This document shows, in pieces, positions 169-6,102 of a DNA stretch of 6,102 bases. The translations under genes and the position numbers were made by a program. Under the pieces are notes generated by a model. That model made no database searches. It saw nothing but the letters and a program-made list of their open reading frames with translations, and had not been told where the DNA came from. This DNA comes from an uncultured bacterium. Its GTDB lineage: Bacteria; Verrucomicrobiota; Kiritimatiellia; RFP12; UBA1067. Positions within the stretch are counted from its first letter, which is position 1. Each line of letters opens with the position of its first letter. The DNA lies in NCBI GenBank assembly GCA_902779075.1, contig CACZAK010000257.1:1-6102 (forward strand). The letters are read 5' to 3'.

Positions 169-192
169 CCTTCCGCGGCACTTCCGCCGCGG
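169..192 (-). repeat. CGCGGC-N6-GCCGCG hairpin repeat, copy 1, at the operon end
   Basis: CCGCGGC (173-179) and GCCGCGG (186-192) form a perfect seven-base-pair stem with a six-base loop. Its first stem base directly follows the lipoprotein stop codon (193-195). Over 24 positions it matches copy 2 (1271-1293 plus one base) at 21, including an identical run of 15. Its position suggests a 3'-end or transcript-stabilising role, but no T-run follows, so a factor-independent terminator is not established. Confidence 0.6.
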
Positions 193-1485: not shown

Positions 1486-3678
1486 TCATATCACGTCTGA
1501 CAGAATCTTCCAGCATGGGTCGGCCTTATTCTCCGTAAAACCGTCAGTTGCAATCAACAATTCATCATCCTCTTCGCTATAGCAGACGAATCCACCGCAG
1601 ACATGGTGCTTTTTGCAATATGCCTTTAGCGCATCCGCCTTCTTAGGCGCATAGATATCAATATTCTCGCTCGCGCCAGATGCATTGAAGTTACCCTTAA
1701 CCTCGACGATCCATGTCGTCCCCTCAATCATCACTATGTAATCTGGGTAGAAGAGCTTCTGCTTCCCCGCATTGTCTTGATAGACGATCGAGAAATATTC
1801 ATCTCCCTTGTCACCATTCCGATAAAACCATTCAACAGAGTGCTCCTTTTCGCACCATCGCTCAAATTTGATTTCACCTGTTGACCTTGGTCGTCCAGAC
1901 GAAAGACAGTCCTTGTAGACGTTCTTTGCAAAGACCTTCTGCGAACTAAGCGAAGCGTCGAACGTGAATATCCATTCACGAGGAAAGTGAAACTCCTTCT
2001 CGGCAATCTGGCTCGCCTTCACCGTCGAAGGAAGCTCGGCCGACATCGCCTCGCGAAAATCCTCCTTCAGCTTTTGCATGTTGTTGATCGCAAACGCATA
2101 GAGTTCCTTCGGCTTAAGCGAGACGAACTTCTTGTCATAGTCCGGCTTCTCCCCAAACAGCCGGGAGAAAATGCCGCGTACATCGTTATACGGCATCCCG
2201 CACCCGGCACCAACCTCACCAAGAGCATGCCGAAAATACTGCCCGTGCCTATGCGTGTCGAGTACGGTGCTGAACGAGACCTGCTGCATCGCGCCGTCAC
2301 TGAAAACGTCTTTCAGAACCGTAGCGTCTCCCGTAACGGTCTGGTTGATGATGTCTGCACTGAAGTCGTAGTGCGCCGGAGCAAGGCGTTTTTTGTTTTT
2401 CGAGGAATCGTCATCGAGCTTATACTTCTTGACGAAATGCGAAACTACAGCCGAAAGAGCCAGCAAGGGATCTCGCGTGTCCGTAACCATCGTGCGCTGC
2501 TCTGTCGTCAACTTGAATCCCCGATGCTCCGGCTTCAGGAATAGTTTTGTCGCATTCAACGCCCTTCCTCCGAGACTTTGCCGCGCTTCGCTCGTGAACT
2601 TCTCGTCGAGCGTATAGAGATAGCAGCTGTCAAGCGTGTCGTCCTCGTAATGACAAGCCTCAGGCATTCGGCGAATCCGACCCAAGGTCTGTATCTCGAA
2701 CGTCTCGTCCATGTTCTTGCGGAGCTTGACGAGGATATGCGCACGCGGACAGTCCCATCCAGTCGCAATTGCCTGTTTGATTATGACAACCTTTTGCTTC
2801 GACTCGTTCTCGCTTATGTCGTCCAAGTTCTCTTTAACGTTCGCAAGCCAGACTGCCAGCGTTCCCGCGGCTGTGTCGATTCCGTTCTTTCCGAGCCACG
2901 CCTCGACTTCTGCAAGCTGCGCGTCGGAGTTGTTCGGCATCTGCACCACGATGAGCGGATTGACCTTGCTTCCCTTCGCCACAAATGCCGCCTTGATTTC
3001 TTGTTGCTTTGCGAGAGCCTGTTCGAGAAGAAACTCGACCTCGTCCTTGTCCTTGAACTTCTTTCCGGACGGGAAGTCGGGATTGATCTGAATCAGCTTC
3101 TTGATGAGTCCTTCGGCTATGACATCCTCTTCCGTCACCTTCACCATTATCGCGCTAGGATTGTCAAGCGGCGTTGCCGAAGCCCAGACGATCTTGTCGG
3201 TCTTGAAGTACGAGATCACCTCGTCGGCCTTACCCGTGAAATTCTCGTGGCTTTCGTCGATCACAACCTTAAATCGGAGACCGGCCTCAAACGCCTTCTG
3301 CACCCATTCGAGGAAGTTCGTCCGCTCACTGTCCTTGAGCGCCACATTACCCTTCATCGTCAGCTTCTGCCAGTTGATGAACACGGCATCTCCGGCAGCG
3401 AAGCCAGACGTCATTACATCAGCGAGGTTCTTCGTCGATGCCCCATGACAGTACTTGTCCATCTTCGATTTGCTCTGCTCCTGCAGTTCGCCCTTGCCAG
3501 GCGTCAACCACACGAAAACGATGTTCGGATTCGCCTTCATGTAGTCGTGCATGAACGTAGTGAGTATTATGGTCTTGCCGCTACCCGTCGGACTCTTGAG
3601 CACGATGTCGCGACCACTTTTTCCCATTGCATCGTTGAGCTGGGCTATAGCGTCAATCTGGAAATTCTTTAGGTCCAT
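1486..3678 (-). CDS. res: Type III restriction enzyme Res subunit (helicase-nuclease)
   Basis: This 730-residue protein is the ATP-dependent cutting subunit of a type III restriction-modification system. It acts in the cytoplasm with Mod on unmethylated DNA. The N-terminal superfamily 2 helicase shows a Q-motif-like FQIDAIAQL (6-14), Walker A SPTGSGKT (29-36), the DEAH-type box DESH (141-144), SAT (167-169), a motif V region ATGWDCPRA (305-313) and motif VI QTLGRIRR (330-337). The C-terminus has a PD-(D/E)xK nuclease core: Pro645-Asp646 in FYPDYIV, then Glu659-Val-Lys661 in WIVEVKG, preceded by the family-like ERWCEKEHSVEWFYRNG (606-622). Length is on the short side for Res proteins (often nearer 900 or more), but all motifs are present, so it appears complete. 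The ATG at 3678 has AGGAGG (3685-3690) six bases upstream, inside the last codons of mod, whose stop lies one base away. This suggests coupled translation in fixed proportion. Confidence 0.94.
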   Translation of the reverse strand: MDLKNFQIDAIAQLNDAMGKSGRDIVLKSPTGSGKTIILTTFMHDYMKANPNIVFVWLTPGKGELQEQSKSKMDKYCHGASTKNLADVMTSGFAAGDAVFINWQKLTMKGNVALKDSERTNFLEWVQKAFEAGLRFKVVIDESHENFTGKADEVISYFKTDKIVWASATPLDNPSAIMVKVTEEDVIAEGLIKKLIQINPDFPSGKKFKDKDEVEFLLEQALAKQQEIKAAFVAKGSKVNPLIVVQMPNNSDAQLAEVEAWLGKNGIDTAAGTLAVWLANVKENLDDISENESKQKVVIIKQAIATGWDCPRAHILVKLRKNMDETFEIQTLGRIRRMPEACHYEDDTLDSCYLYTLDEKFTSEARQSLGGRALNATKLFLKPEHRGFKLTTEQRTMVTDTRDPLLALSAVVSHFVKKYKLDDDSSKNKKRLAPAHYDFSADIINQTVTGDATVLKDVFSDGAMQQVSFSTVLDTHRHGQYFRHALGEVGAGCGMPYNDVRGIFSRLFGEKPDYDKKFVSLKPKELYAFAINNMQKLKEDFREAMSAELPSTVKASQIAEKEFHFPREWIFTFDASLSSQKVFAKNVYKDCLSSGRPRSTGEIKFERWCEKEHSVEWFYRNGDKGDEYFSIVYQDNAGKQKLFYPDYIVMIEGTTWIVEVKGNFNASGASENIDIYAPKKADALKAYCKKHHVCGGFVCYSEEDDELLIATDGFTENKADPCWKILSDVI

Positions 3679-3679
3679 A

Positions 3680-5512
3680 TCATGCCTCCTGTTCAGAATA
3701 GTAGTACTGCGGTATAATTCTTATCTCGATTCCCATACGCTCAAGTTTCTGCCGAGCGGATTTCCCTATCAACACGTCGTGTCCGACATAAAGCACCCTC
3801 TTGCCTTCCATATTCTTGTCGATCGCAACGAACTTTTCAAACTCCTTGTCGGTGACGGCGATTGCAATTGTGCTGTCAGTCCTAAAGTCAATCGCGTTTT
3901 CAAGCTCCACCAACTCGCGGATGTGCTTCAATAGATCGTCTGCATAGTCGTAATACACCTTACCATCAATCGGAATGTAATCGACCTTGAAGTACTTCAC
4001 CGAAGCGGCATACTTGTCGCGCTCGATCACGCGCTTCAGCCGCTCGTACGTCACCTTCTCGCAGATTCCGTTTTCGTTGTTCGTGACGAGAATGAATTTC
4101 CGCGTCCCGCCATCTTCGGCATTCAGCTTCATCACAGCATGGCCCGTCGTTCCAGAACCGGCGAAGAAGTCTAGGACTACATCCGCATTTGCATGCGACA
4201 TCAATTCCTCAATCAAATCTACGGGTTTGGGATTTGAAAACATATCTTTTTTGCCGAAAATTTCAGTCAGCATCTTTGTCGCATCCCCTGTTTCACCTAC
4301 TTCATCATAATATATACTGCGAGACTTAATTTTCTTTATCTTGGTTAACGCGCCGTCTTCAGAATATATTTTTTCATACGGAACCCACCGCCCGTCTTTT
4401 TTCTCCCAATATATTAATCCACGCTTCTCCAAAACCTGCATTCGTTTTAGGCCCACCCTCCATCGGCCTGGAAGCCCGTCCGGTGCCTTGGGATACATAT
4501 TCTTCCCGTCTGGCGTTTTGATTGGAAACCACATTGTAAGTCGATCTTCTTTATGGGCAGAGCTTCCCCATTTTTCCAATTTCACAGCCTTAAATTTTCC
4601 ATCCTCATCTTCTTTATTAAACCCAGCATCTGCTTCGATCAACTCATCCATCCACTCGAATGAAACGCTTTTTCGATATACTAGCACATATTCATGTTCT
4701 GTAACAAAGAACTCCTCAGTTTGCCCACCACCAGATTTCTTGTGCCATATAATTTGTCCACAAAAATTATTCTCACCAAATATATCATCGCACAGGACCC
4801 GACAATTTGGTTGTTCGACATCATTCAACGAAATGAAGAGAACCCCTTTTTTTGAAAGCAACCTCCTTGCAATCTCCAAACGTTTCTTCATGAACGACAG
4901 CCACTTCGAATGGCGGAAGGTATCGGTCTTGTCGACATACGAATCGTTGTAGATGAAGTCCTTGTTGCCAGTGTTATAGGGCGGATCTATGTAGATGAGG
5001 TCAATCTTCCCGCGATGCGTTTTCTCCAGAAGCTTCAACGCGGCAAGGTTGTCGCCTTCGATGAGGAAATTCAGAGGAGAATCTTCATTTGCGCTCTTTG
5101 CGTTCTTTGCGGCTAAATATCTGTTCTTAACCTCCGTCAGCACAGGCAGGTTTTCCGCAAGCTCGACATCAATACGCTCGCGATGTTCCTCGAAGACAAG
5201 TCCGAACTTCTTGTCGCGCACCTCGCGCTCGACTTCGGCCGCAAAGCGAAGCAGACGAACGGCGTTCGTGTCGGAAGATTTTTCAAGAAACGATTTTATC
5301 TCCCCGATCTTGCCAATCAGTTCGTCTCGTCGCAGTTTGGAGAGATTGCCTGTCTGCGGCGCGCTCGGTGATCGCGCCCTACCGCTTTCACGTTGCTCTG
5401 TCTGCAGCGCAGCCGGTGTCTGCGCCCTACCGTTATTTGCCGCAACTGCTCTCTTCGCCATTCCCGCTCCAACCAGGAGCACGGCGACAATGGCAATCAG
5501 TGACTTCTTCAT
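3680..5512 (-). CDS. mod: Type III restriction-modification DNA methyltransferase (Mod), with an anomalous N-terminus
   Basis: This 610-residue protein should methylate adenine (N6) at a short asymmetric site and, with Res, form the restriction complex. The catalytic DPPYN (176-180) precedes the cofactor-binding FAGSG (450-454), the beta-class order used by type III Mods. Family-typical stretches flank it: AVRLLRFAAEV and KKFGLVFEEH (about 84-110), NFLIEGDNLAALKLLEKTH before DPPY, and HSKWLSFMKKRL after it. Residues about 218-438, the presumed target-recognition domain, come from AT-rich DNA. The first 25 residues look like a secretory signal peptide (MKK, hydrophobic core, AVAA), followed by two near-repeats, GRAQTPAALQT (28-38) and GRARSPSAPQT (44-54), before recognisable Mod sequence at about residue 60. 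Start 5512 is chosen for its ATG and AAAGGAG (5524-5530), 11 bases upstream. The frame stays open to a GTG at 5677 that lacks a good binding site, and I see no ATG, GTG or TTG between the repeats and the Mod core. Confidence 0.92.
   Translation of the reverse strand: MKKSLIAIVAVLLVGAGMAKRAVAANNGRAQTPAALQTEQRESGRARSPSAPQTGNLSKLRRDELIGKIGEIKSFLEKSSDTNAVRLLRFAAEVEREVRDKKFGLVFEEHRERIDVELAENLPVLTEVKNRYLAAKNAKSANEDSPLNFLIEGDNLAALKLLEKTHRGKIDLIYIDPPYNTGNKDFIYNDSYVDKTDTFRHSKWLSFMKKRLEIARRLLSKKGVLFISLNDVEQPNCRVLCDDIFGENNFCGQIIWHKKSGGGQTEEFFVTEHEYVLVYRKSVSFEWMDELIEADAGFNKEDEDGKFKAVKLEKWGSSAHKEDRLTMWFPIKTPDGKNMYPKAPDGLPGRWRVGLKRMQVLEKRGLIYWEKKDGRWVPYEKIYSEDGALTKIKKIKSRSIYYDEVGETGDATKMLTEIFGKKDMFSNPKPVDLIEELMSHANADVVLDFFAGSGTTGHAVMKLNAEDGGTRKFILVTNNENGICEKVTYERLKRVIERDKYAASVKYFKVDYIPIDGKVYYDYADDLLKHIRELVELENAIDFRTDSTIAIAVTDKEFEKFVAIDKNMEGKRVLYVGHDVLIGKSARQKLERMGIEIRIIPQYYYSEQEA
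4201..4865 (-). other. AT-rich segment of mod covering the target-recognition domain
   Basis: Counting by hand, 4201-4860 is about 41% GC, against about 55% in 4021-4200 and 48% in 4861-5040. The boundaries fall just after the helix that follows DPPY and just before FAGSG, so the low-GC block coincides with the specificity-determining part of a beta-class Mod. The reading frame is uninterrupted. The composition is measured; exchange of the domain by recombination is inference. Confidence 0.65.
5353..5432 (-). repeat. Two 32-base hairpin repeats translated in mod
   Basis: Copies at 5353-5384 and 5401-5432 are both exactly 32 bases and agree at 25. Each forms a six-base-pair stem in the same register: GGCGCG/CGCGCC in one and GCGCAG/CTGCGC in the other, where a G-C pair has become A-T on both sides. 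Each ends gccctaccg on the plus strand. In the mod frame they encode GRARSPSAPQT and GRAQTPAALQT. A related third copy lies at 5530-5562. Confidence 0.65.
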
Positions 5513-5530: not shown

Positions 5531-5562
5531 CTGCGACGGCAAGGGGTCTCGCCGCCCTACCG
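5530..5562 (-). repeat. Third copy of the gccctaccg hairpin repeat
   Basis: This 33-base copy begins tctgcg and ends gccctaccg like the two copies inside mod, with a stem GACGGC (5535-5540) against GCCGCC (5551-5556) that has one G-U in RNA. It overlaps the start of the mod ribosome binding site by one base and could influence its accessibility. Confidence 0.5.
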
Positions 5563-5569
5563 AAACTTC

Positions 5570-5610
5570 CCCGCACCTCCGCGTGAGATTACGGTGCGGG
5601 CGAAATCTCA
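5570..5610 (-). promoter_or_regulatory. Potential H-type pseudoknot upstream of mod
   Basis: Two perfect inverted repeats interleave. TGAGATT (5610-5604) pairs with AATCTCA (5590-5584), and CCCGCACC (5600-5593) pairs with GGTGCGGG (5577-5570), all written on the minus strand. This gives stems of seven and eight base pairs with connecting loops of 3, 2 and 6 nt, the classical proportions of an H-type pseudoknot in minus-strand RNA. On the other strand a 3-nt loop would have to cross a full eight-pair stem, which is unfavourable. It ends about 58 bases before the mod start and could control translation. No known riboswitch was recognised. Confidence 0.45.
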
Positions 5611-5628
5611 TCCTGCGCATAACCGCCG

Positions 5629-5643
5629 CAAACACCCTGTTTG
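5629..5643. repeat. Short perfect hairpin CAAACA-CCC-TGTTTG
   Basis: A perfect six-base-pair inverted repeat with a three-base loop lies between the terminator and the pseudoknot. It may be part of the structured leader, or an operator. It is short enough to be coincidental. Confidence 0.3.
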
Positions 5644-5649
5644 TGCATG

Positions 5650-5680
5650 AAAAAGAGCGCATGTCCCATCCATGCACTCT
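5650..5680 (-). terminator. Intrinsic terminator or attenuator upstream of mod
   Basis: On the minus strand AGAGTGCATG (5680-5671) pairs with CATGCGCTCT (5663-5654) around a seven-base loop. The ten pairs include one U-G that exists only in minus-strand RNA. The stem runs into five U residues (5654-5650). The plus strand has a mismatch at that pair and no following T-run, so the element is directional. Three bases (5680-5678) are shared with the closing stem of the long hairpin, so the two structures compete at their junction. Confidence 0.6.
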
Positions 5681-5794
5681 CCCGTAGCCCTACCACAGGC
5701 CATCTCAGAATACACGGAGAGACAATGCGCCCAGCTGGACGCATCATCACTCACATGCCGTTCTGAGATGAAATAGTGGTAGTATTTCGGGAGA
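5678..5794 (-). repeat. Long interrupted inverted repeat, 24 perfect pairs
   Basis: Three nested perfect stems of 7, 7 and 10 base pairs are separated by small internal loops (5 by 5 and 5 by 4 bases), with a 50-base apical region carrying its own hairpin. The nested colinear pairing is too extensive to be chance. It could fold as RNA, extrude as a cruciform, or be a mobile-element remnant. Confidence 0.7.
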
Positions 5795-5882
5795 ACGACT
5801 TGTTAGCTTTGACGCTAAATCGACTTAAGCGCTCGGCGAGGCGAGAGCCCGTTTTCCGAACTATGACCCCGCGCCGCGGCAT
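5751..5882 (-). CDS. Possible 43-residue basic leader ORF
   Basis: An ATG at 5882 opens 43 codons ending in TGA at 5751-5753. The start lies about 14 bases after the predicted transcription start and has only a GAGG three bases upstream. The product is rich in Arg, Lys and Ser, has no recognisable domain, and its C-terminal half is encoded by one arm of the long hairpin. Structural RNA explains the region better; it is listed because translation of this frame could alter folding. Confidence 0.15.
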   Translation of the reverse strand: MPRRGVIVRKTGSRLAERLSRFSVKANKSFSRNTTTISSQNGM

Positions 5883-5896
5883 GCGCCTCGCGGGAT
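5866..5896 (-). repeat. GC-rich hairpin at the predicted transcript 5' end
   Basis: AUCCCGCG (5896-5889) pairs with CGCGGGGU (5873-5866), including one U-G in the minus-strand RNA. The apical part can form a further GGC-GCAU-GCC hairpin. It begins at the expected first transcribed base. Confidence 0.5.
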
Positions 5897-5902
5897 GAGA
5901 AT

Positions 5903-5929
5903 ATTATACCAAATTTCCGCCCCTGCAAA
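5903..5929 (-). promoter_or_regulatory. Extended -10 promoter facing mod
   Basis: The minus strand reads TGGTATAAT, a perfect -10 hexamer (5908-5903) with the TG extension (5911-5910). A weak -35 candidate TTTGCA (5929-5924) lies 15 bases upstream, which is short, but extended -10 promoters depend less on it. Transcription would start near 5896-5897. The -35 region is part of an inverted repeat CCCCT/AGGGG (5920-5924 with 5933-5937) that might serve as an operator. Confidence 0.6.
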
Positions 5930-5948
5930 CGGAGGGGAAACGAAATGG

Positions 5949-5970
5949 CCTCCGCGGCGGATTTGCCGCG
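5949..5970 (-). repeat. CGCGGC-N6-GCCGCG hairpin repeat, copy 3
   Basis: CGCGGC (5953-5958) and GCCGCG (5965-5970) pair around a six-base loop, in the same orientation as copies 1 and 2. It begins 27 bases after the stop of the upstream partial gene and is followed by a T-containing but not uniform stretch, so it may act as a weak terminator for that gene. Confidence 0.5.
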
Positions 5971-5997: not shown

Positions 5998-6102
5998 CTA
6001 CACCCACTCGAGTTCGTTCTCCAGCTCCCAGAACGTCTTGCCGTCGATGAGCGGGATTCGAGTGAACTCCTCCATCACCTCGCGCACGGTCGGCTTGGTG
6101 AT
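5998..6102 (-). CDS. C-terminal fragment of an unrecognised protein
   Basis: The last 34 codons of a leftward gene enter from the right edge and end at TAG (5998-6000). The visible residues include KPTVREVMEEF and IPLIDGKTFWELENELEWV: an acidic, amphipathic end with normal codon use and no membrane segment. The start lies outside the window, and I do not recognise the family. The gene is codirectional with mod but separated from it by about 490 bases with a promoter, so it is probably a separate transcription unit. Confidence 0.55.
   Translation of the reverse strand: MTKPTVREVMEEFTRIPLIDGKTFWELENELEWV

Follow-up and report, generated by a model that had tools for sequence, protein, structure and literature searches.

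The 6,102-nucleotide stretch of gut-bacterial DNA analysed here (the window) carries a type III restriction-modification operon on its minus strand. It raises the question of whether the DNA just ahead of this operon encodes a structured RNA and, if so, what such an RNA would have to do with the restriction enzymes. An earlier note on this sequence had proposed an RNA running from an extended -10 promoter element, placed so that transcription starts at the base of a GC-rich hairpin, to an intrinsic terminator about 250 bases later. We identified the following elements in this region:

5903..5911, minus strand: extended -10 promoter element, TGGTATAAT
~5896 to ~5650, minus strand: transcript of ~247 nt, predicted from the promoter and the terminator
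5866..5896, minus strand: G+C-rich 5' hairpin of 8 and 3 pairs, pair probability ~0.8
5831..5861, minus strand: second hairpin, GTTCGG/CCGAGC, mean pair probability of the outer helix 0.86
5796..5822, minus strand: TTAGC/GCTAA hairpin
5678..5794, minus strand: long rod-like hairpin of 7, 7, 11, 5, 3 and 12 pairs with a four-base apical loop
5650..5680, minus strand: intrinsic terminator with a stem of up to 10 pairs (5680-5671/5663-5654, one of them G-U) and a U tract at 5654-5650

The promoter element is the sole TGnTATAAT of the window, both strands counted, and shuffles of the window contain 0.043 on average. The predicted start, with +1 placed seven bases past the -10, is 5896. This is the base of the first hairpin, whose CCCGCG follows two bases later, and the site chosen in the earlier note. 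There is no good -35 for TGGTATAAT, and a promoter scan of the window, which demands two hexamers, listed none. The promoter was judged by a sigma-70-like -10, and the promoter rules of the host class may differ. Ahead of the RNA region lies a minus-strand open frame that enters from outside the window and ends at a stop at 5998; its 34-residue end had no plasmid matches and one phage match, at E 3. We also observed a dispersed hairpin repeat, TCCGCGGC...GCCGCG, in three copies in the window (172-191, 1274-1293 and 5951-5970), the last of them just upstream of the RNA promoter.

On the minus strand, 5895-5646 is predicted to fold at -118.6 kcal/mol against -86.6 (sd 4.5) for shuffles (z -7.06), with 0/200 shuffles as low. 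Most distinctive is the rod (z -8.97 for the stretch 5672-5795), whose stems have mean pair probabilities of 0.98 to 1.00 and whose closing stem has 0.75, followed by the terminator (z -6.47 for 5684-5650). Taken alone, the 5' hairpin is not unusual (z -1.51) and the TTAGC/GCTAA hairpin is unremarkable (z -2.39). The nested rod stems of 7, 7 and 10 pairs described previously reappear in the fold, the third with one additional U-G pair, as do the TTAGC hairpin and the capped apical stem, here 12 pairs under the four-base loop. The terminator and its U tract likewise fall where they had been reported. In the best full-length structure, which contains 10 G-U pairs, the terminator stem has seven pairs, and three bases (5680-5678) are common to it and the closing stem of the rod. 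A terminator scan of the window did not list this site and found one other, with 0.6 expected, probably because G-U pairs extend the stem into the U tract.

The plus strand of the same region also folds well (-93.9 kcal/mol, z -4.42, 0/200 shuffles as low). The difference between the strands is -24.7 kcal/mol, against a shuffle mean of -12.9 (sd 4.9), and 2/200 shuffles show one as large. With more G and U on the minus strand, a degree of bias is to be expected. The bias beyond composition modestly supports selection on the RNA strand, as far as one sequence can, and it fits the earlier proposal of a minus-strand RNA. In a survey of 120-base tiles over the window (one tile every 60 bases, each against 30 shuffles), the top two tiles, 5701-5820 and 5641-5760, were both on the minus strand inside the RNA region. 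The next-best tiles lie at the window start (1-120, z -4.0, and 61-180, z -3.8). Tiles in that area give good folds on both strands; an 18-base, 94% inverted repeat and, by eye, a GGGGACAGTCCCC palindrome were noted there, at 38-74 and 100-160. Together, these analyses confirm the promoter-to-terminator element on the minus strand as a sequence and a predicted fold.

No Rfam family accounts for this element. Rfam 15 (4227 families) gave zero matches to the window at E <= 5, and a search of 5630-5930 alone at E <= 10 gave three chance-level matches scoring 17.5, 13.8 and 10.5 bits where the cut-offs are 190, 35 and 40. With none above its gathering cut-off, the result agrees with the earlier note, which recognized no known family. 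A tRNA or tmRNA identity was considered and none was found. As for coding potential, the two minus-strand frames at 5611-5802 and 5754-5903 share three five-residue words with none of ~5.8 billion proteins.

Among known RNAs, 6S RNA (RF00013; 6S-flavo, RF01685) is alike in being free-standing, of similar size and built around one long rod-like hairpin. 6S RNA carries a large internal bubble resembling an open promoter, whereas the rod predicted here is without a large central bubble, its largest internal loops being 5x5 and 4x3. The candidate also has extra 5' hairpins and is unmatched by the 6S covariance models. Attenuators and riboswitch leaders share the layout of a promoter, a structured RNA, an intrinsic terminator and a gene on the same strand, and here too the terminator arm has a weak alternative partner; the candidate differs in having neither a strong antiterminator nor a known family. 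RNAs have been described at restriction loci before: in the available text of PMC3874152, the type II systems EcoRI and Eco29kI have antisense RNAs that arise from reverse promoters and are antisense to the operon. These RNAs likewise belong to a restriction locus, whereas our candidate lies upstream of its operon and on the same strand. Acido-Lenti-1 (RF01687) and other computed bacterial motifs, as presented in the available text of PMC2864571, are likewise structured RNAs known from genome sequence, and the candidate matches none of those in Rfam at the thresholds given above.

Relatives of the RNA were sought in several collections. Neither blastn against phages and plasmids (E <= 1e-5) nor a search of viral contigs for four patterns, all exact or close to exact and one of them an exact 22-base stem, gave a match, and the same 22-base stem was absent from the genome collection. 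A gapped stem pattern hit three contigs sharing one identical phage sequence; the hit lies where a tape-measure-like gene begins and is unrelated. We also collected loci around relatives of the Mod protein. The best 80 of 590 from the genome collection include no title naming Kiritimatiellae or Verrucomicrobiota, and the best 80 of 412 in viral contigs reach a top segment identity of 43%. Across 164 loci (2.65 Mb), blastn with the RNA returned one 26-base match (E 0.057), regarded as chance, and two loci considered as possible relatives were dropped at 27-29% G+C. A set of 39 genomes around an Elusimicrobia genome had no RNA match and, being of a different phylum, is uninformative; viral contigs had no matches to a mod-start hairpin pattern or to the EamA protein encoded beyond the operon. 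These null searches say little on conservation, because the searched sets gave no way into Kiritimatiellae genomes.

We favor, at a probability of about 45%, a lineage-specific small RNA gene of no known family: a discrete, terminated RNA of ~247 nt that may be partly read through into the restriction genes. A promoter and terminator of its own are present as sequence signals. The same-strand position suits a leader of the operon equally well, so the operon itself needs to be considered. It comprises the following:

3680..5512, minus strand: type III DNA methyltransferase Mod (Pfam N6_N4_Mtase 3.2e-36; PADLOC MTase_III 1.7e-123)
1486..3678, minus strand: type III restriction subunit Res (Pfam ResIII 2.3e-14; PADLOC REase_III 9.3e-16)
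5570..5610, minus strand: possible H-type pseudoknot within the leader of mod, with perfect stems of 7 pairs (5610-5604/5590-5584) and 8 pairs (5600-5593/5577-5570) and loops of 3, 2 and 6

By both sets of domains, Mod and Res are adjacent and the RNA candidate lies upstream of a type III operon, as had been claimed; a gene for an EamA transporter comes after mod-res. The first mod ATG, at 5512, is 138 bases past the terminator, and on the minus strand from 5650 to 5462 there are zero hexamers within one mismatch of TATAAT. Mod may start there or at 5461, the position of a nearly invariant Met18. The segment before Met18 (5461-5512) is a hydrophobic, signal-peptide-like stretch in Mod and in its relatives P0006, P0007, P0008, P0016 and P0032; such a stretch would be odd for a cytosolic methyltransferase, and Met18 may be the true start. 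Besides this possible pseudoknot, no arrangement of the kind on the window's minus strand falls within the limits chosen, a count made without a shuffle control. Its stems alone are worth -15.4 kcal/mol (8 pairs) and -6.4 kcal/mol (7 pairs).

The top-ranked Mod relatives that carry an organism name are from Kiritimatiellae (P0032 and P0020, the latter 85% identical across 47% of the query), which makes this class the probable origin of the contig. In P0016, P0020 and P0026, the ends of Mod are nearly identical and the middle part differs, a pattern suggestive of target recognition domain exchange among strains. Repeats around GCCCTACCG occur at 5350-5384, 5398-5432 and 5545-5571. The first two are in frame within mod, where they encode GRARSPSAPQ- and GRAQTPAALQ-like stretches, and they look like a palindromic repeat inserted into coding sequence.

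The main rival to a separate small RNA gene is a leader or attenuator of mod-res, in which a signal (a ligand, a protein or something else) would decide between stopping at 5650 and continuing, by moving the terminator arms out of their own stem and onto the first hairpin region, or back. We regard this as possible, although we would bet against it. The RNA is on the mod-res strand, with the nearest mod ATG shortly beyond the terminator and no -10 within one mismatch between them. Folds of partial transcripts, computed for this one sequence and not calibrated on shuffles, offer the 5' arm other partners: when the RNA is cut at 5664 or 5660, the arm pairs with 5883-5888 in the first hairpin region, 3.6 kcal/mol better than when left free, and when it is cut at 5668, with 5829-5835. 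At full length, on the same kind of energies, the margin of the terminator over structures with that arm free is 3.0 kcal/mol, leaving an alternative near in energy. The pairing of the 3' arm with the upstream part is equalled in 9/300 shuffles, and the three bases shared by the rod closing stem and the terminator would be in keeping with such a switch. Against this, the best upstream duplex of the 5' arm is ordinary (75/300 shuffles as good), and the alternative pairing is worth 0.2-0.5 kcal/mol until 5668, with the terminator taking over by 5657. The riboswitch and leader families of Rfam gave no match, and comparable structure is absent upstream in the 37 distant mod loci described below. 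The folds thus hint weakly at an alternative to the terminator that is close in energy, with the terminator predicted to win unaided. We also considered a more ambitious version, a new Kiritimatiellae class of structured RNA controlling the type III operon from the leader, in which the rod, the back-pairing terminator arms and the pseudoknot at 5610-5570 would together set the amount of Mod and Res; this strikes us as improbable.

A separate proposal, that type III systems in general have an RNA partner, found no support. We compared the 350 bases before distant mod genes with control stretches, using 37 of 160 loci (24 genomic and 13 viral; 121 were unmatched in the first 60 Mod residues and 2 were without 350 upstream bases). 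Values of z <= -4 occurred in 2/37 loci versus 3/74 controls and z <= -3 in 4/37 versus 4/74; the mean z was -1.24 versus -0.62, with start points extrapolated from the alignment and controls being random rather than intergenic stretches. The window's own stretch scored -7.6 and -8.2 in two runs, and none of the 37 loci has a comparable upstream structure. A dedicated partner of this one system, acting either as a ligand of Mod or Res or as a regulator of their translation, is highly improbable in our judgment: the RNA adjoins mod-res, and position is the sole link to the enzymes. A duplex with the leader at 5531-5649 is matched by 3/200 shuffles, as one of five tests and not significant after correction, while pairing with the mod start region is ordinary (159/200 shuffles as good) and pairing with the res start region is equalled by 24/200. 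The region might instead be a palindrome at the level of DNA, for example a small transposable repeat that has decayed, and only resemble an RNA gene. The window does hold further palindromic repeats, and other tiles besides the RNA stretch fold well on both strands. We nevertheless consider this unlikely, since no second copy is present among the window repeats listed and the fetched loci, where the 26-base match is the best, the hairpin-end flanks show no target duplication by eye, the fold is strand-biased, and the promoter and terminator fit the ends of the element.

If the preferred reading of a separate small RNA gene is right, RNA polymerase would start at the extended -10 near 5896 on the minus strand, copy ~247 nt and mostly halt near 5650, at the terminator hairpin and its U tract. 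What results would be a stable RNA with short hairpins towards the 5' end and a single rod of ~117 nt. The rod would probably be its working part, binding protein or base-pairing. A fraction of the polymerases would pass the terminator and supply mod-res, and such read-through suits the locus because the minus strand offers no one-mismatch TATAAT hexamer between the terminator and Met18.

As the evidence stands, the locus holds one well-formed orphan candidate of a known kind of element. If it were true that the RNA controls the operon, this would be a type III system under the control of an RNA, of which the papers listed gave no example in their titles and the beginnings of their abstracts. 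Searches for small or noncoding RNA in Kiritimatiellae likewise showed none of this kind by title or abstract, which makes this candidate a useful starting point for that class.
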